Positions 1 through 42,802 of a stretch of 64,000 nt of DNA are shown here, piece by piece. Source of the DNA: Amphirosellinia nigrospora (Eukaryota; Ascomycota; Sordariomycetes; Xylariales; Xylariaceae); contig SCHM01000003.1 in assembly GCA_004123355.1 (NCBI GenBank), forward strand, positions 3,615,058 through 3,679,057, given 5' to 3'. The notes below the pieces were generated by a model. The model searched no databases and was not told the DNA's origin. It saw only the letters and a program-made list of their open reading frames with translations. Positions within the stretch are counted from its first letter, which is position 1, and every line of letters begins with the position of its first letter. Made by a program: the position numbers and the translations under genes.

Positions 1-609
1 GTACTTTTCGGCATTTCTGGGGTGGGAAATCAGAGAAATTTTGTAACCAGTTGCCCCGTGCCCCGAGCATAGAGGGTTAGAAAGGGATGGATGGGCGTAA
101 GCAGTACAGCAATACATTACCGCCCTGCGAAAACCCCTGCTTAGGCCAGGTCCAATGGGGTTCAACGTGTACAGGGGACCAGTGATTCGTCAGACGACGC
201 CGCGGAACCCCATCCGTGATGCGACGGACGTAGCGTAGCGCAGTGTAAGTACGTACACATCCGGCCGAGCCCGCCCAGCAAGGATTTTAACTGCCGCTCA
301 AATGACGGCGGTAAGGGCTTGAAGGATGCTGTTCCTAGGCAGGCGATGGCGTGAAGGCTGACGGCGCTGCACCTAGGCCGTCTGCCGACTGGCAAGTACT
401 TAGGAACTGGCTTCGCCCGCACGATCCAGTAGTTGTAGCCCTGTGAAGAGCGTAGGAAAGCATACATAAGTCTTCTGGGGGTTCACTACTGTGGTGTGGG
501 CAGGGAGAAACAGAGAAGAGCGACGGTGTCTGCAGATGGGTTATTGGCCACGAAAGAAATGATAAATACGCCTTGTCTGACCGCAATCGACTGATCTCCC
601 CCGGATCTC
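1..609. other. no recognisable gene
   Basis: Several overlapping open frames under about 100 codons occur on the minus strand, but none shows a recognisable domain, signal peptide or consistent codon use. The right end should hold the promoter of the cupin gene. Nothing else seen. Confidence 0.5.
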
Positions 610-1350
610 ATGATGCCGCTTCGAACATCATTGGCGGCCGCCAGCGTCGCATTCGCGACCCTGTTCGCGGGCTGGGCACAGGCGGCGACGCAGTGCGACT
701 CTCGACACCTGGCCCGCGACACGAGCAACAGCAGCACCCCAGCGCGCAGGAGGTCGTCGCCCAGCTGGGCCTCGTCCCCAACGTGGAAGGGGGCTACTAC
801 GTGGAAACGTTCCGCGACGACCGGCTGCTCCCTACCACCAACCGCTCCGTCAGCACGGCCATCTACTACCTCCTCGAAGGCCCGAACGCCCCTCGGTCTG
901 GCATCGCGTCGACGCCGCCGAGGTCTGGCATTGGTATGCCGGCTCGCCCATGGTCCTGCAGCTCTCGAGCAACAACGGCACGCCCACGCGGGACCATCTC
1001 CTGGGCCCTGATTTGTTCGCCGACCAGAGGCCGCAGGTCGTGATCCCCGGGAATGATTGGCAGCGCGCCATTAGTTGTGGGCGGTGGACCTTGGTAGGGA
1101 CTACTGGTAAGTACAGAATATTATTTCTTTTTTTAGAATTTTTCTTTTTTTCCCTTTTCTTTTCTTTTCAATCCTTATTTTATTTCTTGGTATCACGTTA
1201 CCTTATATTCGACGGATATTTCTCCCTAAAATCGTGACACTGCCGTATATGAGATATGATTGACTGACCGACTCTCGTAAAGTCGCTCCCGCGTTCGTAC
1301 CGGAGGGCTATGAGCTGGCACCGGACGGTTGGCAGCCGAACGGCGCATAA
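610..1350 (+). CDS. secreted cupin-family (DUF985-like) protein, two frame breaks, one intron
   Basis: The first 25 residues look like a signal peptide (hydrophobic stretch ending ...GWAQA), which is why I choose the ATG at 610 over the one at 573. The body resembles fungal DUF985/RmlC-type cupins: VEGGYYVETF, then STAIYYLLEG, then VWHRVDAAEVWHWYAGSP, with the cupin histidines, then QRAISCGRWTLVGTT. These segments lie in three successive frames. The changes fall in CCCC runs at 737-740 and 889-892; one extra C at each site would join the frames exactly. A GTAAGT donor at 1107 and an AG at 1282 define an intron, and exon 2 (1283-1350) gives VAPAFVPEGYELAPDGWQ and a stop. The cupin fold is clear but the substrate is unknown. 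It is either a gene with assembly errors or a recent pseudogene; I favour the former because neighbouring genes show the same pattern. Confidence 0.7.
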
Positions 1351-2593: not shown

Positions 2594-3727
2594 CTAGTTT
2601 GTGTTCTGAGTGTCTGTGCCCGATTCAATCACTGCGGCTTTTTCAGGCAGATCCGCAGCCCAGACCTTCTTCTCTCTCCTTAATCCTCTTTTGGTCCATA
2701 TGACGGTTATCCACGTCCATATGACGAAGAACACTAATGGCTCGCCCCATCCTGTCCTCATTCGTTAGCAATCAGTCGTTCACTAGTTGGATATCAATTT
2801 GTTAAGGCAAAACTCACCGACACCGTAGGCAATCTCTTGCTGGGGAATTACCCAGACCGCAGCGAGGGTACCAGCCCCGCTAATCACCGACCCAATCCCC
2901 CAAAACCAATTTAACTCTGCGATGAGACGCCTAAAGGCCTTGCTGGCCTTGTATCTCTCCAAAAGCTTACGACGGAAGCGACGCGCGCCTCCGCCGTCAA
3001 CGCCCACCACATCCTCGACGGCGGTTAAGACGTAAGGCGGCTGAGGTGCGCCTTTAGGTATTGAGCTCACTTTGCAAGCCGTTCTCATGCCCAATGCGGA
3101 CATAGTGCCTGTAACTATGCATAACATGCCGGCGGCGATGAAAAATAGAGGAACGGGGATGGCTAGTGGCCGGACCAGCGGCTCGTTTGGAATGGAAGAA
3201 CCGATGAGGATTCCCGTCATGATTGTATAACATATCGATAGGGTGTGATGCGTGAAGTCGAAGCGCCACCGCGTGCCATCGAGCGGTCGGTATTTATCGT
3301 TCTTGTGGATCAGGCGCCATGACCGGTGGGCGAACTCGAGGCCCGATACCAGTCCGAAAAACGAGGTAATAATTGCAAAGACTGGGGCGTTCTGAGTTAG
3401 CATGGCTAGACTGACTTCAATATTCATGAGATGATGCCCAGGGATATACTCACGAATTCCATGCCTCAGGTTTGTAGCGTACCAAAGGGGATAGAATAAG
3501 ACAAGGGGCAACACGCTACCCTCGGCTATGAGAAGCCCCGACACGATGAATAACTTCTTCTTGTGGTCCATCAAGTTATACTCTAATCGCGGTAATCCGG
3601 GTAGGTTCCCGTACCGGTCTTCGGCCATAGAGCGTCTCGCGGTGGTGAGGGCGTCGCCATACTCTGGAGCCCTACTGCACTCCGCCGTATTTTCTGAATC
3701 ATAGTTGGACTCGGCCATGCTAGCCAT
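2594..3727 (-). CDS. fungal multi-span membrane protein of unknown function
   Basis: Two exons, 3727-2818 and 2751-2594, joined by a GTGAGT...CAG intron, give 355 codons with no frame break. The unspliced frame would end after the donor with an unlikely tail; splicing instead gives VGWGEPLVFFVIWTW, another membrane segment, and a charged C-terminus. The N-terminal 50 residues are polar. At least six hydrophobic segments follow, at roughly residues 58-85, 108-132, 165-185, 190-218, 270-295 and 303-320. I recognise it only as a conserved-looking fungal integral membrane protein. The start could be Met1 or Met4. It stands alone between gene-poor flanks, with its promoter in 3728-4610. Confidence 0.7.
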
Positions 3728-4610
3728 TGCGCATCGAGTGACTGGTGCGTGAGGAAACCAGCCACCTCAAAAAACGATGGGAGATGAAGATGGAGAAGTT
3801 CGCCTCCAGGAAAGAAGCGAGCGGAATCGTTGGAGTCGATGGGAAATGGCGTCGATATCAATCAGCAGATGGACGTGATACGATATCGAGTTTGGTGTAA
3901 GGAAGAATCTTCAGATCAGCCCCACTTAGAAAGAAGGTTAATGGGAAAGGTAACTAGATATCCCCGGGTGCACCATAGACGCTAATGTAGTGCTGTGTCT
4001 GATAACAGCCAAGCGTACTGACGAAAGCCGAGTGTGAGAATGGCCAGAATGGGGTGAGATCTAACCAACCTAGAGGTTCATTTGCAGATAGGTTCTGGTG
4101 GTTGATGACGTGGTGTAAGGATGCAAGGATTAATGGAGATTTTATTTTCTGCGCAAAGTGGTTTTTTTACAGCGCCTGCTATATAAGTAGGTAGGTAGTT
4201 GACACATCATTTAAGGGCACCCAGTGCACTATTGTCTTTGAACTTCCTACTTCGCATGGTCCCTAACGGCCAGTAAACCTACCCCAACCTTAAAACGTAA
4301 TGACGTTCCCCTGCGCCCCGCTAAACCCTGACAGTGGGCAATGCAGGATGACGGATGATGTCATCGCCAAGCCTGTTTTCAAGCTACCCAACTCGCGATT
4401 TGCTGTGGAATTAGGCCTACTCTCTTATCTACATTTACGAATCTTCTTATGCTATCAACATTTGTGGAGAAGGAAAGGTATGATTCTAGTGTTTGTATGA
4501 CTTGGGTATCGTGAACAAACAAATATATGGGAAACGCCAACCATGAATATGCTCGGAACGGTAGTATATACTAGTGAACTTTCCCACCCAAACTTCTCTG
4601 CTAACACGAG
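3728..4610. other. intergenic, probable promoter of the membrane protein gene
   Basis: Only short frames without domain signal. It holds the upstream region of the minus-strand membrane protein gene and the 3' flank of the hydrolase gene. A 66-codon plus-strand frame at 4300-4500 has no supporting features. Confidence 0.4.
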
Positions 4611-5774
4611 CTATTTACCTCCTTTAGGTATAACCGCCGGCGGCACATGACGGGGTCGCTCAAGTATATAATGTTTATTATCGCCGTTGAAGACCCTCCA
4701 AAGTCCTGTGGAACATTCTCTGTACATTTTTTCTGACTTGTTCGGGGTTTGAGTAGATTTGGAGCCTTGTCCCAGCCATGCCGGACTCCACGGACCATAT
4801 GATAGAATACGTGCTTGGAAATCGGCGGCTGCTCTAACCGCCGGGCTAGAAACTCGCCTTCATTCAAGAGCATGTCCCATTCGCAAGTAAAGAAAAGACG
4901 TTGTCTGGTATACTCTTGATGAGAAGCTCATCAGAGGCTTTGTTTGGGGAGAGACATGGATCCGCTACGTCTAGCTCTGTGGGGAAAGAGGTACGATGCG
5001 TCAAAAAGATTGGTCAACGACGCAGGGAGCGTGGCCTCTGGTTTCACACAGCTGGCTCGCCTCTCCTCCCTGCTAAGTGTGTAATCCGTAATGGGATAAA
5101 ATGTGGCGAGTGCGACAATCGTGTGCTTGGGTATTGACATTGTCTGGCCAAGGAGGTGTAAGTGCATGGGTGCTGTGATAGCGATGTTCCCCCCTGCCGA
5201 GAATCCCGAAGTCGCCAGCCTATCCGGATCAATCCGCAGCTCTGCAGCGTTTTTAATGACATATAACAACGCATCGACGCCATCTTCTACAGCAACAGGA
5301 AACGGATGTTCCGGGGCGAGGCGGTAATCGACCGACACAAATATGGCATTGCTCTTTTCAGTAACAAATCGTGCAAAGCGAGCGTCGTCGGTCGCAGAGC
5401 CTATGGTGAACCCTCCTCCGTGGAAGTTGACTACTGCAGGCCATTGTGTGTCTTTATTACTCGTTTTGTATTCTGGCGGGGCGTAAATTGAATTGTGAAC
5501 CTCCCTGGTCGACTCGATATCGTAGAAGGTATTGACCTCGTGAAGTCGGGTTCGGTGGCCGCGGAGGCGCCAGAAAATGAAAATTCATGCCTAGGCATTG
5601 CAAATGCCGCCACGTGTTGGCCGAGATACGCAGCGACATCCGCGAAGGAGGGGTCCCTGTTTTGTCTTTCGCTTTCTGTGGGCTTTCGGTCGGAGACAAA
5701 TTGGATCCGGATACCGCTGTGGTGGTTCGAACACCTGGCGCGACTCCGGAGATACCCTCAACAACAGCAGCCAT
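4611..5774 (-). CDS. alpha/beta hydrolase (HSL-like), candidate ergosteryl-aspartate hydrolase ErdH
   Basis: The reading frame is spread over several frames, but in order the gene encodes: an N-terminal part (DPSFADVAAYLGQHVAAFAM); VNTFYDIESTREVHNSIY; the oxyanion-hole motif NFHGGGF; VSVDYRLAPEHPFPVAVEDG; the nucleophile elbow SGFSAGG; CEWDMLLNEGEF, which supplies the acidic residue; RGVRHGWDK, which supplies the histidine; and a conserved-looking tail ending PPAVIPKGGK with a stop at 4611-4613. The full triad is therefore present. Frame changes map to short runs, for example AAAA at 5574-5577, GGGG at 4981-4984, AAAA at 4893-4896 and GGGG at 4744-4747. The gene lies head-to-head with the AspRS-DUF2156 gene, the arrangement expected for a dedicated Erg-Asp hydrolase. 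The fold and triad are seen; the ErdH role is inferred from context. Alternative: an unrelated esterase of the hormone-sensitive lipase family. Confidence 0.65.
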
Positions 5775-7576
5775 TTTGCTAGCCCCGCAGGTGCTCTAAT
5801 ATTCTAGCACAGTAGAAGTTCCGAAAATCGTGTAGGCTCTTTTGTTCAGAACGATAAGCTTCCAAGCCTCTATCACCAGTATACCGGCCGTCTAGTAAGA
5901 CGGCAAGGATGAGAATAACCTAGACACCTGCATTCTTAAGAGGGCAAGGTACTATATACGAGAAACAGGTTCTTGAGAGCGCGAGCTGACCCAATATTAT
6001 GGAAACGAGGCAGAGGCGGCATGACGATCGGAAGCACATTTACATATAGTCCTAGTGACTAACTCTTGCCAACTACTGTCTAAACATTTTACAATAAAGG
6101 TTCCTCGTTATGAGAGATCGGTACTGGCCTAGAGAGATCTAGATAACGATAGGGAGCTGAAGACGCGATTGAGACGACGGATCGGGGCTGATAGGGCGCG
6201 CTGGCCGGCGATGACGTCGCTATTCTAGCTTCAAGCCACTAAAATACCTGTACCTGACGGTCTATCTCATCGGAAACTACCGTAGCACATTCGTCGATTG
6301 CACTAACTTACTCAGTAGGCGGGCTATTGCAGTCTCAATTGAATCTAGATTCCATCTCGAGTGATTCAGGCTACCTAGTATCTTTTATGTGCATTAGGTA
6401 GGTACCTAAGGTATAAGTGCCTACGCAATAGGACGAGAACATGTAATGACGTCACCATGTCTTGCATTTAGAAAATAGGTTAAAAGTGAACACCGCTACT
6501 AAAGGGGATCGCATTGAGCGTCTGATAGGGAATTGATACCAGAATTCTCAAACCTACTCGATCAAAAACTTGTGTCTTGTTTTGGTATCACAATATGGCT
6601 TCACATGCATTGAAGAGGCGTCCTCTGAGAATCTGGAACCCGGAGTGATGGCGTCACAGCTTGCCTAAGTCCCCCACAAGTATCGATGGTACCAATAGTA
6701 CCATGTTATGCTGGCAGCGACTCGCGTCCCCCTGTCGCTCTAAGTTGCCCAAACGGGATGCAGCTAGGGACATGTGCCGTTGTGATTGGCTTAAGACACA
6801 GCAATAACAGCCCGGCGCAAATGCTCCGCAGCAAACCGGCTCTCCCTGAGAATTTATAGCGATGTCGTCACTGTATCTTCGATCCCAGTTGACCCGTGGT
6901 AACGCTATAACGAAGCCGCTATAACGAAGTCGAGTTGTTTACTGGAAGCGCGTAGAAAGTACCTTGGCACTTATGGAAATAGGGATATAGTCCGTATCAT
7001 ATTTGTCCCGATTAAGCATCGAGAGTTACCAAATTTATCTGTTCGAGTCGGTAGGCCCCGTTCATACCCGTTGAGTCAGTGGTACTTGATTACATGATTG
7101 GGAGCCAACCTGGTACCCCAGAAAGCCGAGGGCGAGTGAGCGTAATACCTGCTTCTACTTGGTTGGCAGGTGCTGCATCACCGAACTTTGCCCTACCACC
7201 TCCGAGCCGCCACGAAGTCTTTATTCTTTATTAACCCGATCAGACCGCCAACCCTCTCACAATTTTCCCTCTCTTGTCCGGCTATTGACACATTCCTACC
7301 CCCAAGTCTCATCCTTGCCCATCTACTCATCGCGCTGTGCACCAGCCAAGCACAGGGGGGTTCCATCCTGTCTTATACTACGAGTAAACGGGAAACCTGC
7401 ACGATCCGTTCGATCGCAACATCGTCGTTCGCTTCTTGCTCCACCTTTAAGCACACACGATACCTGCGCCTAGGGCCGCCGTCAGCCACGATGCCGGGCA
7501 CTCTGAAGCAACCGCTTCTCTACTTAAACCGCATGATTGGTCACACATCTGCGAAAACCACATCACCAAACTTCGG
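5775..7576. promoter_or_regulatory. divergent intergenic region between hydrolase and erdS
   Basis: About 1.8 kb with no convincing coding frame, shared by two divergent genes. It contains a perfect palindromic TGACGTCA at 6447-6454 and a related TGACGTCG at 6212-6219, the core recognised by CREB/ATF-type bZIP factors. Near-matches occur around 6648 and 6867. A short direct repeat, GCTATAACGAAG, occurs twice near 6903-6933. Leaderless or upstream frames such as 7170-7598 show no domain. Regulation by a bZIP factor is inference from motif content. Confidence 0.45.
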
Positions 7577-10225
7577 ATGGGAAATACAGATGCTCTAGAG
7601 CAAGACTCCGACTCCGACAAGAAACATCTCAAATCAGTCTACGAGAAACGAGCGAAGCGACAATCTGCCCAGGAAGAGAGGAAGTCGCTCCAGGTGAAGC
7701 GTCAACAGGAAGACGAGGCCGCACGCGCGGCTGATCCACCCCAGATTAGCGGAAGCTATGGCGCCGTCGACGAGCAAACCGTCCCACCCTCGAAAGACAT
7801 ATCTGGTCTGTCCGCAGCCCAAGCCGGATCAAAGATCAGTTTCACTGCCCGAGTTCACCACACACGCAATATCAGCTCTAAACTAGCCTTTGTTCTTCTT
7901 CGCCAGTCGACAACGACGATACAAGCCGTAGTCCAAGTTCGTGACGGCGTCGTGTCTGAACAATTTGTTCGGTGGGTTGAGCACTTATATTCGGAATGTA
8001 TTGTGCATGTCCAGGGTGAGCTTCGCGCGCCACCCGAAAGCATCAAGACCTGCAACATCCATGATCTTGAGATACTCGTCGACAAAATGCACGTGATAGT
8101 CCCTGTGGAAAATCCTTTATATATCGATGTGTTTGGGATGGACCAAACTGAAGAAAACCCAGAGACGCATGAAAAGCAACTGGCCGTATCAGGCCGCGTC
8201 CGAACTGCTAATCGGATCGTTTTTTTGCGGACTCCCGTTATGCAAAGCGTGTTTCGCATTCGCTCTGGTATCTGCAACATCTTCCGCTCTACTCTCGATG
8301 ATCAAGACTTCATTGAGATCCAAACTCCAAAGCTACAACCAGCCGCAACCGAATCGGGGGCATCGGTGTTCCCAGTCCAATACTTCGGAAGAACTGCGTA
8401 CCTAGCTCAGAGTCCTCAATTAGCCAAACAAATGGCTATATCCGCTGATTTTGGCCGTGTGTACGAAATCGGCCCCGTGTTCAGGGCAGAGGACAGCAAT
8501 ACACATCGCCATCTTACTGAATATACGGGTTTAGATCTTGAGATGGCTATTCTTAACGACTATCACGAGGCGATGGACATCATTGACACAATGTTGAAGG
8601 CAATTTTCAAAGGCATATACGCACGATATCGGAAAGAAATCGACATTGTTAAGGAACGCTTTCCCCATGAGGATCTAGTATGGCTAGATGAGACACTTCG
8701 TCTGACATTCAAGGAGGGTGTGAAGCTTTTGAACGACTCTGGATGGGTAGATGAGGATGGCAAGCCGACCTCAGACGACGAGGACCTTGCGACGCGGGCC
8801 GAGATCCGTCTCGGAGAATTAGTCAAGGAGAAATACAAGACCGACTATTTCATACTCGACAAGTTTCCCGCTTCGGCTCGGCCGTTCTACACTCACCTCG
8901 ACAAAGATGACGATAAAGTAACCAATTCTTTTGACATCTTCCTTAGAGGCCAGGAGATTACCACTGGAGGCCAAAGAATCAATAACCCCAGCTTCTGGCC
9001 GAGAGAATGGTGAAGAGTGGCGTGGAACCAGAAACTATGGAAGAGTATATGCAGGCATTTGAATGGGGTGCCCCCCGCATGCCGGGTGCGGTATCGGTCT
9101 GGAGAGAGTATTATTTCTGCTGCTGAATCTCGGTGATGTCCGGAACGCTTCCCTGTTCCCTCGTGACCCGAAGTCGCTACCTGCGAGAACGGTCGCTCCC
9201 GACAAACTACCATTCCCCGATGCTGATACTATCAAGTATGCATTCGAGGGAGAACACACACATGTCCACCTGCCAGACCTCGAGGAGCTCATAGTCAACT
9301 ATGGCGATGCAACCAATACCTCATGGCTTGATGACCGTTATAAGGTCTGGCGAGACTCCGACACGGGTGCCGCCGTCGGCTATGCCGAGGAAAATGGTTA
9401 CGCTTTAATTATGGGTAACCCACTTTGTGATTCACGACAGTACCCAGGTGTGATCAGCTCTTTCCTCAAGTATTTGAAGAACAGTGAAGACCTCCGGCCG
9501 ATCTGGCTTCTAGTATCTGCCCAAGTAGAGGAGATCCTTGGTTCAAAGTTGGGCTGGAGGACCCTTACGTCGGTGGCTGAGGAGCGCGTTGACACCAATA
9601 ACGCCGCGGGAGTTGCGAAGAAGGAGCGTCAAGCCAAGAATGCGGATATCAAAATCCACTCTACAGCTCTTGGAGAGTCCGTCCCTGAGGAAGTGCGTGC
9701 CAAATGCGATAAGCGCATCCAAGATTGGAAGGACAATAGGAAGGGTAAGAAGCAAGTACACATCACGGATGTGCAACCTTGGATCTCCATGCGGCATCGT
9801 CGGTACCTCTGGGCCGAGGATAAGCAAGGCGAGATTGTTGGCCTTGTCATCCTACATCGTCTTTCGCCACAGAACGGTTACCAAATCAAGTTCGCTCTTG
9901 ACTTCCCTGGGGCCCCGTCTGGTAGTATTGAAGCCCTAATCGCGTCGTCATTGCGACTCCTACAATCCTCGGGCGTCCAGAATGTCACTTTCGGCGCTGG
10001 CGCCACGGACGAACTCGAGGTTGGCCATAACCTTAACGGCATCAAGGCCAAGATCTTAAGCCACACATATAAGACTGTTGCGCAGCAGTTGAAGCTGGGC
10101 CAAAAGAGCGATTTCCGCGAGAAATTTGGCGTGAAGAACGACCCTGTGTACATCTGCTACCCTTCATGGGTCTCGGTGTCTCGGGCGCGAGGACACTTAT
10201 CAAATTCTTCGAGGATGAGATGTAG
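7577..10225 (+). CDS. erdS: aspartyl-tRNA synthetase fused to DUF2156: ergosteryl-3-beta-O-aspartate synthase ErdS
   Basis: Residues 1-70 form a charged extension. An OB-fold anticodon-binding domain follows (about 75-175), then a class II AspRS core with motif 2 ([18 protein letters not shown]) and EYTGLDLEM, then motif 3 (GCGIGLERV). After about residue 530 comes a DUF2156 (GNAT-fold, LPG-synthase type) domain starting [16 protein letters not shown] and NTSWLDDRY. Fungal proteins with this layout are ErdS: they charge tRNA-Asp and transfer Asp to ergosterol. The frame changes at CCCC 8986-8989 ([12 protein letters not shown]), at CCCCCC 9071-9076 ([12 protein letters not shown]) and at CCC 10160-10162 ([22 protein letters not shown], stop 10223-10225). 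One C added at each site restores the family sequence, so I treat these as likely assembly contractions. ATG 7577 is the first in frame; an upstream exon is possible. It converges with the PDR gene. Confidence 0.88.
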
Positions 10226-10777
10226 GAAGTCCATGATCGACAGGGAATGGAGCACAGTAGTCGGGCCATTACCTCAAATCGTAGGTTAATGGCCAGGTTG
10301 CTTGGCGTTTTCTTTCAAGTGACCGGCAGTTGCCTTGCTGCCTGATCACCTTTCGTAGACTGTCATGGCGCATTAGACAGTTCTGGTCGGCTTTAATTAC
10401 CACGTTTATATACCCACAAGAAGGTAGCATTGGTGTTTGTATTTAACTGCTCTTTTGTTAAGATGAGACATGAATTAATAATAAACAATATTACTCTACA
10501 TTTGATGCTAGATTCATTTTGCTACATAGATTATTCTTTGCACCCGTGATACGTGTCAAATTACATACTTTTCATAAGACTACATGTTTATCACATAACA
10601 CACCCGCTATAAGTGGCTCTCGCAGCCACGGCAGGTATGGTGAAGTTTCTCCATCCTAGCTACACACAATATACACACCATGACAATCCATACCTGACAA
10701 TATGACTTTGTCTATTAGCCTATCTTAACAGTTTATAACGTCTGCCCGTTCGCCCAGGCTTAAAAGCCAACAGTCGA
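10226..10777. other. convergent intergenic region
   Basis: Between the 3' ends of erdS and the PDR transporter. AT-rich, no coding signal; holds both 3' untranslated regions. Confidence 0.5.
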
Positions 10778-13700
10778 TCAAGTCTTATTCTTGCTGAAAT
10801 GCCCCAGGGACTTTTTCAAGACGTTGACAAATTTACCCAGTGTGCCGAAGACATACCCAAGTCCGAATTTCCAACCGCGGATGCGCACCGTGTAGATAAA
10901 GAAGTACACTAGGGCCCAATTGGAGACACAGAAAGCGAGAAAGATGCCAAAATCTACGATGAGAAAGACGGTTAGCTAGAAGATGACAATTGAGCATCTC
11001 GATTGCTCTACTCAAAATCGCAGACTCACCTCTCCACTTCTCATTAGCATCGATATTCAGCGTCGACAAATATTGATTCCCGCTGCTGTAGGGGCAGTAC
11101 TGGCAATCTGCGCGCGCGTCCGGGTTTAGCAGGTACCCGCCAGCAGAGCCAGCGTATGCTCCTGCGTAGTCCTGACACGTCTGTCCAGAGGGCGCATCGA
11201 AACGAGCCGTCTCCGAGATCTCGCATTGGACAGGCTGGCCATCGAGAGTTGCTGCGAGCATGCCGCCGATCCAATACGTGCTTGGGTTTAGATAATAGAT
11301 CCAGTAGCGCCAGAAGGCGGGCAACATGCGGTATGGCTGCACCACGCCATTGAAAAGACCGTTGATGACGAAGAAGAAGGGAAGAACCTACACGCGTTGG
11401 TTAGTACCAGTATAGTCATCCAATAGTGCTAATCATGGGAGGGGTGAGGATTGACTTACGTTCGAGATGACAGTGAAGGTAGGCGCGAATGCGCAGATCC
11501 ATTGGCCCCAACTACTCATAAACAAGTACATGAGAACAGTCATCAAGTACGAGTATCCGGATACAGAGCTTTGCGTCGGCAGCCCGGTGGGCCAGTACCA
11601 GAGTGCCCAGTAAAGCGTCCCCGAGACGATAGCGGCCGGGATCTCGGCCACGACGTTGGCGGTGCAGAACGCGACCCAGCCGTAGACGCGCGAGGGATAC
11701 TCGCGGGCCTCCCAGAGCGCCATATTCCCGAAGAACTTGGGCAGGACGGCATTCACGATGGTGGGCGGGATGGTGACGATCAGAAAGCACGTGAAGAGCC
11801 GATTCTGCATGTCCTGAATCGAATTCCCGAGTTTCCAGAAGGTAAAGCCGTTGAAGATGCCGATTATCACCGCCACGAAGAACTTTCCGTACAAGTATGA
11901 GGGGTCACGCCAGTATTGACGGAACATCCGTTTCGTTAACTCAACGGTCTGCGTCCAGGTCGACGCCGCATACTCCTTGTATTCCTCTTTCTTCTTGGAG
12001 CCCTGGTTAGGCTCTGTGGCGGCGCTTCGCGTTCTCTTCAGGCCGTCGATTTCTTCGATGACACGCGCGGCCTGCTCGCTATCACGCCACTCGCTATTCC
12101 AGTCAACTTTCGTACCATCTTCGCGCTTATGAGGTCGCGCCGCCGTCTCCAAGATGAACTCTGCGACATTTTTGCCTGGTGGGGGACGCGCGCCGCGCTG
12201 AGAGAAATACTCTATAACGTCCTTGCCGTTCTCGCCGATGGGGCCGAAGTAAAAGGTGTTTCCGCCTGGGTTCAAGGCTAGGACCATGTCAAACTGCTGG
12301 ATCAGGACCGAGCTCGGTTGATGAATGGTGCAGACGATGGCTTGCCCAGCTCGTGCAAGCTTCTTAAGGAAGGTCACTATCGAGAAGGCGGATTGAGAAT
12401 CCAACCCAGAGGTCGGTTCATCGAGGAATAGTAGGAGCGAGGGTTTCGCCGCCAGCTCTACGCCGATAGTCAATCGCTTGCGGAGCTCAACACCTAGGGA
12501 GGAAATAATGGTGTCTTGGAGATCGTTTAGCTCCAAAAGATCGATGATCTTGTCGACATATGTCAATTTCTCGGAGCGTGGAATGCTGGCTTCTTGACGG
12601 AGAAGGGCGCTGAACTCGATCGCTTCTCGGATGGTTTGCGTACCATCATGAAGATCTCCTTGTAAGCAGAAGCCGGTATTCCGTTGGAAGTCGGGTCCGA
12701 GAGCGCGGCCGTCGACGAACATCTCACCACTGATGACTCCCGTGCGCTGACGCTGCGCCAGCGTGTTCAGAAGCGTGGTTTTCCCAGCGCCAGATGCACC
12801 TACCAGGGCAACCAGGAGGCCAGGTTTGGCATATCCGTTCACTTTGTTTAACAGCTTACGCTCGCCTCCAAGGTAAGGCACCGTATATTCAACGTCACGC
12901 CAAGTGAAGATCGAGTCGCTGCTACTAAGCTGCTCTAAAGCCTCTTCATCCTTTTTAGTTGTATTTCCGGAAATATTTGATGACAAACTAGTATCAGAAT
13001 CGCTGTTCTTCTCGACATCCGAGGGCGCTGCTGCTTTCTTAGCTTGTTTCTTCGCCTTGCTACTCTTCTTGAAGATGAGTGCACCGCCGCCGCCGGACGT
13101 AAAGCTGAAGAGCTCCGTGGCTACAACCGTAACAACGATATAGAGCAACGAGAAAGCGATGACGACGCCGAAGTTCCGCCATAAGTTCGAGCGGCTATAG
13201 TTGAATTGCGTCTGCAAGTAATCGCCGCCTGCGACTTGCGCAGAGTTAACTGTTGCGCCTGCCAGCGCGCATCCCTGAAACCCAGATTGGGCATTGGGTC
13301 CTTGTGGTACAAGTTGCTCTGGAGCACATTGCATATCTCGTCCTGATAGTTCGTTCGAAATAACGGCTTCGAAACTATAGGCTATAGGATTTACCAATAG
13401 AGCCAACCGAACCAGATATAGTCACTCAGCAGCTGTGTCTTTGGAATAACGTATCCGGTGTAAATAATTAGGATGTTCAGTGCTAGTCCAGAGAAGCGAA
13501 CAGCTGTGTCAATCTCTGGAGAAATGCTCGCGAACATTCGATAGAGCGATGTCATCATCAACGTGGTGGTGTAGACGAATAGGAGGTATATCCAGAACTT
13601 GCTGACATCGCGATCAAGATTCGTCAAAAAATACATAAGAATGCCGAATATCACAACTTGGACAAATACTACGGGGATATCTGTGATCACGCGAGCAAGA

Positions 13701-15652
13701 GAGACCGCGGACGGGCGATAGAAGGCGTAGTCTTTCTGTCGCGCAGCCACTGCTCGCCCTGATACTGCCTTTATAAGCTCTGTAAGTTGTAGCCAGCCTA
13801 AGAAGACAATGGAAAAAAAGCAGGCACCGCCGCGAGTAAAGGCGCCCTCGGTGGAAAAAGGTTGGTTGTAGTAGATCGAGCCGACGATTAAGCCATTAGA
13901 GATGATGATGAACAGTTTGGTCCAAAGCGTTGTGGTATCGCCGAGTATTAGCCAGAACTCGCGCTTAGTGCAGTTCAACACCTGACGAGGAAATGATACG
14001 GTGTATGGCGATTTCTTACTAACATTGCCAGATTTTGCTTCTTGAACGGCCCCTTCGAATCTCTTAGTGTCTTCATACTCCGTTTGTTGCAGATGTTTCT
14101 CATAATCTTGGACATCATCGATGAGCCTTTGGTAGTTTGGTGAATTTCGGAACGCCTTTTCCAATTCTTCGGGAGTTTTTGGTGCCTTGTCTTCGAAGCC
14201 TGGTCTAAATTGTCTTTCTTTGGCGTCGGTTACTGCAGTCAAGAAGTCTGCCGTTGTCTGCTGCTCAGGGCACTCGAAACCAAGATCGATGAAGTACTGC
14301 TTCGCTTCCTTGGCCGGGCCCGAGTAAATCTCGCGTCCCTCGTCAATAACCAAGACCTTATCCATGAGTTCGTAGATGCCTTCTCCTGCTTGATAGAGCG
14401 TAACGAGCGTAGTGCGGTTCGTAATATCCGTCATGATCCGTAAAGATTTAGCGTAATCCAATGCAGTCGAAGCATCGAGGCCACGCGTCGAGTTGTCCCA
14501 GGCCATAACTGTCGATTTTGATGCCAACGTCTCGGCAATCGACACCCGTTTACGTTCACCGCCGGAGACGCCACGGACGAAATCATCGCCGACGAGAGTA
14601 TACTTGGTATGGCCGATACCAAAAACCTTCATGAGCGCATCGGTGGTAACCGGAATATCCTCCTTTTCGGACTTTTTCGTCTTGTTAAGTAACGCAAAAG
14701 TCAAGGTTTGCCATACGTTCAATGTAGCATGGTGAATGTCGTCTTCAGGGTTGTAATTGACCTCGCCGCGATACATCTCCTTCTGTCGTTTTGCAGGAAT
14801 ACCACCGTATGAGATATCGCCCTCGACTGCAGCAAAAGATTCGCGATTGTTGGTAATGGCTTTCAGGAATGTAGAGCATCCAGCGCCTGGGCGCCCTAGG
14901 ACCAGCATCATCTCCCCGTCACGAACACATCCAGTGAAGTCATGAATTAACTTCCGAGTTGGTGGCTTCCGAAATAGCAAGGACGGGAATAACTTGGTTA
15001 TATTCTGGTATAGGTCTGGCCCAAAGGTGCCGAGTATCGCGTCTGGGACGGTGCGAACGAAGGACGCCGTGCTCCCAATACCTCTAACGGTAAGATTACG
15101 ATAGACAACCCCGACCCTCTTCTCGGAGCCTGCTTCAGTGCGCTTTTCGAATCGGCCTTCTCTCATGAATTTGCCGAACTCGAAATCGTCGTCTTCCGTC
15201 ACTCCAGCTTCAACGTCGGTATCTCGCCGGTCAATACCCTCTTTCGCCCCTGTTGATGATCGAGTATGCCGAAGACGACGACTAGTCCGTGTATCCTGCG
15301 TCCTTGAACGATGTAATTGGATAAGGTTATGCCGTAACTCTTCCAGCTGTTCCCTAGCTGCTTCTTCATCGATACCACCTCCATCGCGTTCGCCCCAGGT
15401 GCCGTGTAAAGCCGGCATTTCGTCTAGAGCTCTGCTGATTTCGGTATCGTTGGCAGCGGGATTTAAAATGCTTGCATCTATGGGCTGGTCTCCTCTATAC
15501 CATTGGTTCGCCGCCGTATGTTGCGAATCTGTCCGGCTAAGGCCTTTCCCGTCAGCTGTGGATGTCCACATGTTGACGACTTCGTGAGATGATTCGATAT
15601 TTGATCGGCGATTTGTATATTCACAAGGAAAAATTGGTATTTCCCGGTCCAC
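10778..15652 (-). CDS. full-size PDR/CDR-type ABC transporter (ABCG)
   Basis: Layout is (NBD-TMD)x2, typical of pleiotropic drug resistance pumps in the plasma membrane. NBD1 has Walker A GRPGAGCST, signature VSGGERKR and the degenerate Walker B (AWDNSTRGLDAS) usual in this family. NBD2 has GASGAGKTT, a signature-like LRKRLTIG and LLFLDEPTSGLDSQS. Three exons: 15652-11460, 11387-11030 and 10953-10778, with clean GT-AG introns. The last exon gives FGIFLAFCVSNWALVYF and ends HFSKNKT. One break lies at GG 13394-13395: the sequence reads YIWFGWLYW then stop, while VNPIAYSFEAVISNEL follows at once in the next frame, so a GGG probably lost a base. Total length is about 1,570 codons, slightly long for the family because of the N-terminus; an internal Met (about 15571) may be used. 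Likely an efflux pump; substrate not predictable. Confidence 0.92.
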
Positions 15653-17190
15653 CGGAAACCTCTAAACCACAATCCAGGTCCGTGTCCCAAGAACTGGCTT
15701 GAAGGAGCAGTCGTAATCTTCGATTAAAATCTCTAATGAAAATTCATCCCATATTTGGGGTCGAAAATAATGACAACAACAGAAGGGCGATAAATCGAAG
15801 TCAAAGGTTGCTGTCTCAAGACCATGCCAAATATATACTCCGCGCCAAAGATGTGGGACAAAGGCAGCGAGTATTACGATATGCAAGCTGGCAGTCAGAC
15901 CGCTCGGAGATACGGTTAAAAACATCGTTTTCTCCATCTTGCATTATTCATCACAGGTTGGCCTGAACCAGTCTTACATGTCGTCACCGATACAGAGGGG
16001 CTGCAGCCCTATCCAAAGTTGATGTGACGTCTTCATTAGTGATCCTCAATCTTCAGCTTAGACCTGAAGCGGCCTGGGCGATAATAAATGGGCTAACTTA
16101 CACCTGGCAAAAATATAAATATCTGCACTGGGACTGGCAATGAAAATCGCTTCTATCTTTGTCATTAGTATGCGGAGCCTCATCGACCCTGGGATACCGC
16201 TTGGGAGGAGGGTTGGTTGCCTTATCTTTGGTTCTTGTCTTTGGTTTGCATTAAGGTGATGACTGCAGGGAATAAGCGCCTGTGATTGGCTCACAAATGG
16301 ACGGTGATAAGCGATGTTGATCATCGGCAATAAAAGGCGCATCGGAGCTAAGCATGCAGGGTAGGTATGACTTGTTGCCAACAACCACCAGATACAATTC
16401 TTGGCAACTTATTCTCATACGAAAGGAATCTGCGACAGGCTTGTCGGACTTTACTAGGGTGCGGATCATGTAAGCTCAGCATCTTACAATTCACTGTTAT
16501 TGTCCATGTCTCTTTTTCGGCTCATTTAAACCCGAGCACCACCTGCACTACTTCAATATTGAATTAGTACGAGCGGCACTCACGTAAGCCTAGCTAATAC
16601 AAGGTCAAGTCTGCACGTATCAAGGGGCACCCATTGCCCTATAACTTCACATGTCAGTCTTATTTTTTTTTACTATGCATAGTTTTGTCCGAGCAACGCC
16701 CCACGTTACGATGCCTATTACAGTCCCACACCGACTCAATTTCACGATGCATCCCCTAAACCAGACCTCCGTATAGCCCAGGGCTAGGCTACCAAGAGTA
16801 TTAGGCAACTCGCACAGTAACAACAATCTACACATAACCTAGTACTCACGCGATCTTAACATTGTAGTTATTTTTCTGTTCAATTTCACATGAATTCTTT
16901 TGCGTTTAATTCGGTTAGGAAGTCACCCATTTACGTGAATGGATAAGTTAAGCTACGGATGCATATACGCAAGCCTGCCTCCTTTACCAGTGCCCAGATC
17001 AGGTGAATAGTCACATACACCAATGTAATACAAGACGACAACTTGAGGATGGGTTCGGGAGTGGTGTACAGTAACCGATACCTAGTTCCACAGATTTTCC
17101 ACACTACTACGGACATGATGTAAGTAGTTCCAATAATTCATTTCCACAAAAAGACTGCCAATGCCCAAAATCCCTCCATCGCCCATTGCC
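15653..17190. other. intergenic, promoter of the PDR gene
   Basis: Upstream region of the PDR transporter and 3' flank of the RNase H-like gene. Frames of 60-108 codons occur but none has a domain or paired splice sites. Nothing further seen. Confidence 0.45.
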
Positions 17191-39158: not shown

Positions 39159-42100
39159 TCAAGTTAGGCTCTTATCGGGTCTAACCACGAGAGAATGGTA
39201 TGCCTGCCCGACGATAGGGCTTCCGATTTCGCCAGGAGCCCCAACATTTCTCGGGAACGGACTAATTCCTGAACCAATGTTCATTTCGAACCGGACAGCA
39301 ACTTTGTCATTATCGTCACGACGGATATCAAAACTACCGCCCCCGTTCTGAGGATTTCCCTCCGTCTCACAGATTTCAAGCAGCTCGGCCTCTTTTATCG
39401 ACTCAGTGGGAGAAGGGTTGATTGAATCCACATGGCCTTTGATGGCAGATAAGTCGATATAGCCTTTTGCATCTGCTGCATAATTTTCTAAGTCTTTGCA
39501 GGTACGCACAAGCAACTGGCGAATTATGACTGGACGAGGCTGCGCCGCTCTTGTCACGGGAGGTGGGATACCAAATGTCGGATTTGGTGGCCAACCCCCA
39601 TTGCCAGGAATATGGCCAAAGCCTGGTGGAGGTGGGAATATGCCTGGAGCGCCCCAAGGTGTGCCAGGGGACCCAAAAGCCGGGTTCATGAATGATGGAC
39701 CAGGGAAGGGAGGTCGAACGCCCGGGGGTTGTACCCCGATGAGCCGTATCAAAACGGTTCAATAAGGGCTCATCTGTGTCATCTAGCAGGGCGCTGCTGC
39801 CAAGATGGTTGCTCATATCGTCGATATCCGTAGACATGTTATTGCTTCGTTGGCCGTGGACGATACTATCTGGACGGCCTATTGGCGTTGGCTTTCCGAT
39901 GGGATGAACGCTCGGGGGGTTTGCATCAAAAGATGTCGAGCCTTGACGCGAATGTGGCGAAGGGTGACCTGGGGGGGCTCTGGCGAGGAGAAACCTTGAT
40001 GCAAGCCCGGTAGATGTGGATCTATTCCTGGCTGGGGAAATCCCGGCGGTGGCATGTGAAACGGTCGACCACCCATCGGACCACCTAAGCCCGGGGGAGG
40101 TACCGGTATACCAGGAGGGCGGAACTGTCCAGCCATCGGTGGAAATATAGGCTCCTGCATTCGGGGGAAGCTGTGACCCATCGGCGGAATCCCCGGCGGC
40201 ATTTGCATCGGCATTGGTGGCATACCCATGTCGAAAGGACTATGTTGAAGACCCGGGGGACCTTTAACATTGTTATGATGGGGGGTCATAGGAGGGATTG
40301 GAGGCCCAGCAGAGTGTATCTTGCCTGGTGGTCCAATTGGCCCTGGACTGGCGTGCAGGGGACTGAGGGCGTGTGGTGATGCTGTTTGACTAGGGCCAGA
40401 TGCCGAGTGAGATGCCTGTGAAACTGATCGCGTGACCTCTTGAGAAACAGATCGTGGCTTTATCGGCGTATGGATCAATGGTAAAACCGGTGTTGCAACT
40501 GGAATTTGTGGGGAGGCATGATTCGCTAGAGGCTGCTGAGGAAGAGCGGGTATTGAGATTGGGTACTGTTTTCTCGCCGGCTGTGTTGGAATAGGGGCAG
40601 CTAGGGAGGCTGGCTTCGCTGTTGTCTTTTCCTCCTGCTTCATTTTCTCCTTAGCCTCGCGCTCGGCAGCCCTCGATGCCTTTTCCTTCTTGTCCTTCTC
40701 ATGCTTCTCTCGCCGTTCGCGGGTTTCACGCTCCTTGATTTCACGTGCCTCTTGCTCTTTCTTTCGCTGTTCCTCCTTTAACTTCTTCTCGCGTTCCTTT
40801 GCTTCTCGAGCTTTTCGCTCCTGTTCGGCCTGTCTCTCCTTCTGCTCTTGCGCGCGACGTTGTTTCTCGCCCTCTTTTCGCAAACGTTCCTCTTCCTCGG
40901 CTTTCTTTTGCGACTCCTTCTTCTTTCGCCTCTCTTCTGCCTTGGTGCGAGCTTCCTCTATCCGTCTGGCTTCCTCGGCTGATCGGGCTTGTTCTTCGGC
41001 AGCCTTTTCGGCCTCACGCCTCGCTTTCTCTTCGAGAAGAGCTTGCTTTTTCTGGAGAGCCTTTTCTTTGCGTTTCTGGGCGTCCTTCGCTTTCTTGGCC
41101 TTGCGTTGTGACTCCTGGGTTTCTTCTTGTTCAAGTTCCTCTAGTAGTTTCTCTTGTCGCTCCTTGGCGACCTTTTCTCGATAAGCGGTCAGTACCCTCT
41201 GTTCAAACATCCGCGCGGCAAATATCTGAAACATTCGGCGGCCCTCCTCCATGCGTTGTTCTTCAGTCATCTGGTCCTACGTAATGATCAGCACTCTGTG
41301 CGTGGTGGCCGACTCTATTTGATATACCTCTTCCTCTTCATAATCCTCCTCCTGGCTTTCGTACTCCTCTTCCTCCTCTTCCTCCTCATCGTACTCTTCG
41401 TCTTCGGGGGAGGATGGTTATGTGGACTTGATAAGCCCCCATTTACGTTATGACTGTAACTGCTGTAGTGAGTAGCATCCTCTTCGCGTGCCATCCTACG
41501 TTCAGCTAGTTGTTCCATCATCTCGATAAATTTCTGCCATCGTTCTTTAAAAGGTCATCCGCTACGGTAAGAATGCCGCCTAAAATAGGTTAGCCAAGTC
41601 CATGGAAGTTACGAGAATTAGGGGTAATGATGCACCTTTCACGGTGAGGCTCTGCCCAAAGTTGAAGAAGTCGTTTGGATATGTATCTCGCGGAATTTCT
41701 TCAGGTTCGTCCTCATCGTCCTCATCCTCTTCTTCTTCCAAATCATCTCCCTCGCTATACTCTTCGTCTCCACCCTCAAGCTCGTCTTCTTCATTATCCA
41801 CATGTTCTACTATACGCCCGCGCGATGGATGATGGTTGGAGTACCTGGAAGGCATTACACCGGGTGGATGTAGCCCACTCATAGGGCCGAACCGTTTAGG
41901 AGCGAACATGGGTGGACCATTAGGATTGCCGTGAGGCTGGTTGGCGAAAGATTCGAGTTCCTGATAATACGCATCGTAGAGTCCTTCTAGCTCCTCCTCG
42001 ATGGCAGTGCGCTTGCGGCCGCAGACAGAGCAGCTACAGGTATGCTTCTGCTGTTCCTTCATCTTGCGGAGTACAGCATCCTTCTCAACCTTGACAAGAG

Positions 42101-42802
42101 ACTTCCGTTCTTCTTCGCCCAGGCCTAACCAAAATTGCTTTATCCGTTCTCGCTCTTCCGGGCCGGAGGTATTCCATATCTTCTCTCTCGAAATACCGGA
42201 AGGGCGAGCAGCTTCGGGTTCTATAGCAGCTTCCTTTTTCGGCTTCTTCTTCTTCTTAGACTTCTTCAGCTTGGGCCCTGCGCCGTTTACCGACAGATGC
42301 TGAGAGTCTCGGGTGAAAGCGTCATTGAGAGAGCATCATCGCTTTCTGTCTCTTCGCCCCAGTCATCATCATCATATTGATTACTTCGCGAGGGGACAGA
42401 TCCAAGTGGTGGGGCGTTCCGAGGAGTAGGTGGGTGGTTCTGATGTATGGCCTCCGAAGTAGGTAGCGGCGCGCTCGACGTTGATGCTGGGCTGGGCAGT
42501 CCGTTAGTAGCAGCATGTTCTTTCTCAGCAGCAGCCTTGCAGCAGCTTTTGCACGCGTTTCTGCTTTTTCTTATTCACCGTTGTCGGCGCTTGGGGCTCA
42601 GTGGGAACTGGCCCATTTGTCGGCGCACCACCTCTCGAGGACGAGGTTGTTGTCGGCGATGGTTGGGCCGGGGCGTGGATGCCGAAGACTTGGGAACAGA
42701 TATGTATTTGGTGCCATCTTTATTGGTGTACTTGGCTGTCGTCTTCGGTGTCGGCGACGCAGCTGGGACGGCAGCAGGCTGCCGTTTGCTATTGGCGGAC
42801 AT
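39159..42802 (-). CDS. nst1: NST1-like stress response protein
   Basis: Long low-complexity protein with the layout of fungal NST1. A basic N-terminus ([19 protein letters not shown]) leads to an Ala/Lys stretch, then the hallmark Cys region ending [20 protein letters not shown] and [17 protein letters not shown]. Acidic runs follow ([17 protein letters not shown]), then [15 protein letters not shown]. Next is a 200-residue charged coiled coil ([19 protein letters not shown]) and a Pro/Gly/Met-rich C-terminus with [16 protein letters not shown]. Introns: 41580-41635 and 41277-41327. At least six frame changes occur, mostly at runs such as GGGG 42670-42673. Each shifted segment continues the family pattern, so I read one gene, with a total of about 1,180 codons. 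NST1 is a negative regulator of salt tolerance in yeast; the fungal role is less clear. Confidence 0.85.

Follow-up and report, generated by a model that had tools for sequence, protein, structure and literature searches.

The enzymes closest to this locus are ErdS, which makes an aspartylated ergosterol (Erg-Asp), and ErdH, an Erg-Asp hydrolase with an alpha/beta fold. ErdS is the ergosteryl-3-beta-O-L-aspartate synthase of Yakobov et al. 2020, so named in PMC9437257, and its attachment of aspartate to ergosterol is already published there. Enzymes that take amino acids off again are also published, and PMC8172173 mentions them as deconjugating enzymes. ErgS is the ergosteryl-3-beta-O-glycine synthase (PMC10449517). 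MprF-type enzymes and LysX, unlike ErdS, have glycerolipids as their substrates (PMC10580965, and in part general background).

In the literature searched, which did not extend to the primary reports, no single paper mentions ErdH, ergosterol and hydrolase. The primary paper may already describe erdS and erdH side by side.

The window is the whole stretch of DNA analysed here, 64,000 nucleotides at C5:3615058-3679057, from a genome of 11 contigs and 48.1 Mb. Judged by its sequence, a + strand gene in it is almost certainly ErdS. Its - strand neighbour would, from fold, motifs and position, probably be ErdH. That both identities hold and that both genes work is, taken jointly, likely. The features are as follows, with coordinates in the window.

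4601..4902, - strand: C-terminus of the hydrolase, where CEWDMLL would hold the acid and RHGWDK the His; from motifs and a weak PF07859 end
4903..4989, - strand: hydrolase segment in another frame, by eye
4990..5574, - strand: alpha/beta hydrolase core with HGGGF and GFSAGG; PF07859, E 4.1e-35
5575..5774, - strand: probable N-terminus of the hydrolase, split between two frames, with the first visible ATG at 5774; by eye
5775..7576, no strand: divergent intergenic region, about 1.8 kb between the first visible starts; from the ORF list and a motif scan
7577..8990, + strand: AspRS half of ErdS, with the OB-fold and the greater part of the class II core; putative N-terminus at 7577, the first ATG in frame
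8991..9074, + strand: short AspRS-core stretch in a frame unlike either flank, read by eye
9075..10165, + strand: AspRS motif 3, then the DUF2156 / LPG_synthase_C domain of ErdS; PF09924, E 2.7e-18
10166..10225, + strand: probable C-terminal end of ErdS up to the stop at 10225, in yet another frame; by eye

The preliminary description had read the + strand gene as an AspRS-DUF2156 fusion. The Pfam search agrees: PF01336, PF00152 and then PF09924 follow each other at about 7577-10225. The ORF at 7451-9013 (+) holds the OB-fold PF01336 (E 2.1e-08) and tRNA-synt_2 PF00152 (E 2.7e-58). The piece 9063-10226 of the ORF at 9063-10289 (+) holds the end of PF00152 (E 1.1e-07), and PF09924 at E 2.7e-18 over profile positions 14-298 of 298. 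The OB-fold, the class II core and the C-terminal DUF2156 (PF09924) fusion are thus all present. The last segment stops at 10225, which is also where the preliminary description ended the locus.

A search of PDB sequences places the two pieces on consecutive parts of one chain, 9w9f (66-529, then 554-931). This chain has 947 residues and is named 'Aspartate--tRNA ligase, cytoplasmic'. The AspRS half is identical to 9w9f at 239 of 455 aligned residues (52.5%, 512.7 bits), and the part with motif 3 and DUF2156 is identical to 9w9e at 191 of 366 (52.2%, 387.9 bits). The pieces become one gene only when joined across frame changes. The AspRS half scores lower against canonical AspRS chains, with 350 bits for the best, 4j15, and 327.6 bits for 1eov/1asy; we take these to be human and yeast AspRS respectively.

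The ErdS layout claimed for the gene is therefore borne out by a near full-length match to the solved proteins 9w9e/f/g, which likewise consist of AspRS and DUF2156. From that layout we infer that 9w9e/f/g are ErdS proteins themselves. The gene had also been called divergent. This stands only in the sense of 52% identity per half to one relative (9w9e/f/g), and nothing beyond that.

Given the domain content, the domain order and the near full-length relation, ErdS would share the chemistry and substrate of its family. The AspRS half would charge tRNA-Asp. The DUF2156 half would then take the Asp of Asp-tRNA and attach it at the 3-beta hydroxyl of ergosterol, which yields ergosteryl-3-beta-O-L-aspartate.

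The + strand gene is not the canonical AspRS, because the genome has a separate one, L009 on contig C4, and that reading was rejected. The C-terminal piece of L009 scores 108.2 bits against 1eov/1asy versus 102.0 bits against 9w9e in the PDB search. At E 1e-5 its N-terminal piece has four PDB matches, each a short AspRS chain without the length for DUF2156, and none from the 9w9 set.

PF09924 has one match in the whole genome, the window's own, in a six-frame search that scored the best candidates only. When the DUF2156 piece is searched against the genome, the hits are the piece itself and four short matches within residues 1-54 of the query, its synthetase end. Therefore no free-standing, ErgS-like DUF2156 gene was found genome-wide among the best candidates of the six-frame search.

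Both genes of the pair are broken into several reading frames in this assembly. ErdS consists of four segments with three frame changes. The hydrolase consists of five, with about four changes in about 390 codons (by eye), which is denser than in ErdS. Introns are disfavoured as the cause in ErdS and in the core of the hydrolase, because segments there adjoin or overlap; near the N-terminus of either gene an intron may lie. Read differently, the breaks could be signs of decay into a pseudogene, in one of the genes or in both, with the pathway or its removal step lost in this fungus. The greater density in the hydrolase could likewise point to decay of that gene alone.

Hsp70 genes of the same assembly serve as a control. 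Of 20 matches, 15 were paired by hand, which gave 5 loci and 10 joins; the five that did not pair were left out. Every join (10/10) changes frame. Six of the ten, in 4 of the 5 loci, overlap by 4-14 bases, so that an intron would not fit; at the remaining four there are gaps of 10, 17, 49 and 134 bases. One of the unpaired matches, C5:4071527, sits in a 657-codon open frame and is unbroken in its matched part, so the breaks do not affect every gene, a point in favour of decay. The coding sequence of the canonical AspRS likewise lies in several frames, although introns are possible there. The Hsp70 genes at C8:855379-857197 and C7:1398639-1400377 are examples of frame changes without intron room.

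The assembly thus seems rich in small indels. Because four Hsp70 loci also change frame without intron room, assembly indels are likelier than decay, and assembly errors are the most probable source of the breaks in ErdS and the hydrolase. Both genes are therefore taken as working. Decay is not the first choice, with the Hsp70 loci and the canonical AspRS likewise broken. The motifs are also kept, and before as well as after its breaks ErdS remains 52% identical to a solved protein. We consider decay of either gene very unlikely.

The preliminary description had placed an alpha/beta hydrolase with HGGGF and GFSAGG head-to-head with ErdS. Both points hold. The hydrolase is a PF07859 protein on the - strand at about 5774-4601, ErdS is on the + strand, and their starts face apart. 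Its stop lies at 4601, or at 4611 in another frame, the position where the preliminary description began the locus. In the Pfam search the main ORF, 5584-4931 (-), matches PF07859 at E 4.1e-35; the N-terminal piece 5757-5434 has no Pfam match. A whole-genome scan reads the pieces as one PF07859 match that contains two stops and covers profile positions 1-208 of 210.

All four motifs start in one frame: HGGGF at 5422, GFSAGG at 5206, CEWDMLL at 4885 and RHGWDK at 4783. The Asp and His candidates of the triad come from these motif positions and from a PF07859 match at the C-terminus that is weak when taken alone (E 0.014). Among the best 60 of 126 distinct PDB sequences at E 0.001, the relatives are esterases, lipases and carboxylesterases, with 2c7b best at E 7e-24. 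Matches to NCBIfam models are short, and the best, LipP1, reaches 115.8 bits against a cut-off of 350.

With this fold family, a nucleophile, oxyanion-hole motifs and a head-to-head position next to ErdS, the substrate of the hydrolase may well be Erg-Asp. It would then act as a serine esterase that cleaves this steryl ester. Should the hydrolase prove to be ErdH, the turnover of aspartylated ergosterol could readily be addressed through this pair.

The genome holds many hydrolases of this kind. PF07859 has 42 matches, which merge into 34 loci if those on the same strand and less than 1 kb apart are joined. With the window hydrolase as query, 16 other matches are found. The best, on contig C6, is 42% identical over 109 residues and 57/162 (35%) over a longer stretch, and at the C-termini 17 of 38 residues are identical. 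It has HGGGF and GFSAGG as in the window gene, plus a CEYDMLL region; a gene on C7 has GFSAGG with HGSGF. The motifs of these fetched loci were read on one strand only. Since GFSAGG also occurs in the C6 and C7 genes, it is not special to the window locus.

In another reading ErdS is real, but the hydrolase beside it is one of the general esterases of fungi, of hormone-sensitive-lipase type, and acts on a different substrate. ErdH proper would then be elsewhere, and the C6 hydrolase, from its sequence, could be it. About 34 loci supply candidates, HGGGF, GFSAGG and the CE-DMLL region recur in the C6 gene, and the closest solved relatives of the C6 and window hydrolases are alike named carboxylesterases, esterases and lipases. 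The C6 gene, however, is not beside an ErdS, as the only DUF2156 match found is the window's.

Position also counts against a general esterase. A given gene has a PF07859 gene on at least one side with a chance of only 0.45-0.68%, and as its immediate upstream divergent neighbour with one of 0.11-0.17%; neither figure is corrected for the pair's having been picked out by the preliminary description. These figures assume 10,000-15,000 genes and about 34 PF07859 loci. The adjacency supports a functional link between ErdS and the hydrolase, but does not name the substrate. We regard the general esterase as unlikely, and ErdH remains our reading of the - strand gene.

The preliminary description had also called the pairing close and taken it to suggest co-regulated synthesis and removal of the lipid. 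The genes are indeed neighbours, but their first visible starts, 5774 (-) and 7577 (+), are some 1.8 kb apart, so 'close' is generous. No ORF of at least 100 codons lies wholly between about 5800 and 7090.

The window was scanned with an SREBP-type consensus, which we take to be a sterol-regulator motif. One site with one mismatch lies between the genes, at 6015-6025. The motif is not enriched in the window: there are 22 sites with at most one mismatch where 17.5 are expected, and 16 of 100 shuffles reach 22. Shared sterol regulation is not supported. Co-regulation is thus not shown, given the distance between the starts and the unenriched motif.

A wider proposal must stay tentative and is somewhat doubtful. 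In it, aspartylation would be the only tRNA-dependent sterol modification of this fungus (no ErgS), with synthase and remover driven from one intergenic region. If true, a divergent pair at a single locus would set the level of sterol aspartate.

The window has other recognisable features. Beside ErdS, at 11433-15661 (-), is a CDR/PDR-type ABC transporter. It is split over at least two ORFs, two of which each carry PF06422, ABC_tran and ABC2_membrane, and a third, down to 10833, seems by eye to be part of it. An NST1 salt-tolerance domain lies at 41583-42335 (-) (PF13945, E 4.3e-50). ORFs in other frames down to 39159 seem by eye to continue it; the one of these that was searched, 39882-41276, has no Pfam match. 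The presence of genes such as the transporter and NST1 indicates a fungal genome. A Cupin_5 (DUF985) domain at 456-1040 (+) covers profile positions 1-51 of 139 and is probably shortened by a frame change or intron. The 327-codon ORF at 2783-3766 (-) looks by eye like a membrane protein, and has no Pfam match at E 0.01.

Models of the bacterial relatives fit ErdS poorly. The MprF model scores 21.3 bits on the DUF2156 piece, where its cut-off is 600. The LysX model scores 55.8 bits against a cut-off of 742, and its match is in the AspRS half. Single-sequence structure prediction of the DUF2156 piece is poor (mean pLDDT 43.9, pTM 0.34). A fold search with this model, considering the best 50 of 841 matches, has 4v36 (L-PGS) first (E 1.7e-05, TM 0.27), followed by acetyltransferases and MprF-type chains; 9w9e/f/g are absent from these 50. 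The predicted fold may be said to fit the DUF2156 assignment, and this carries little weight. Among viral contigs, six stretches matched the pattern sought for relatives and none was confirmed.

Compared with known systems, the locus is a sterol aspartylation pathway of known type in one more species, and not a new kind of system. The bacterial MprF and other aminoacyl-phosphatidylglycerol synthases, and LysX, share DUF2156/LPG_synthase_C (PF09924) with ErdS, and LysX is like it also a fusion with an aaRS. ErgS resembles the window ErdS as a DUF2156-type transferase acting on ergosterol; unlike it, ErgS uses glycine and a separate glycyl-tRNA synthetase. ErdH and the window hydrolase are both alpha/beta-fold serine hydrolases, and the window candidate adjoins erdS. 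The solved 9w9e/f/g differ from the window ErdS in being 52% identical to it, and in that the window frame is broken in the assembly. Known ErdS and the window gene share the same construction, with DUF2156 fused at the C-terminus of AspRS.
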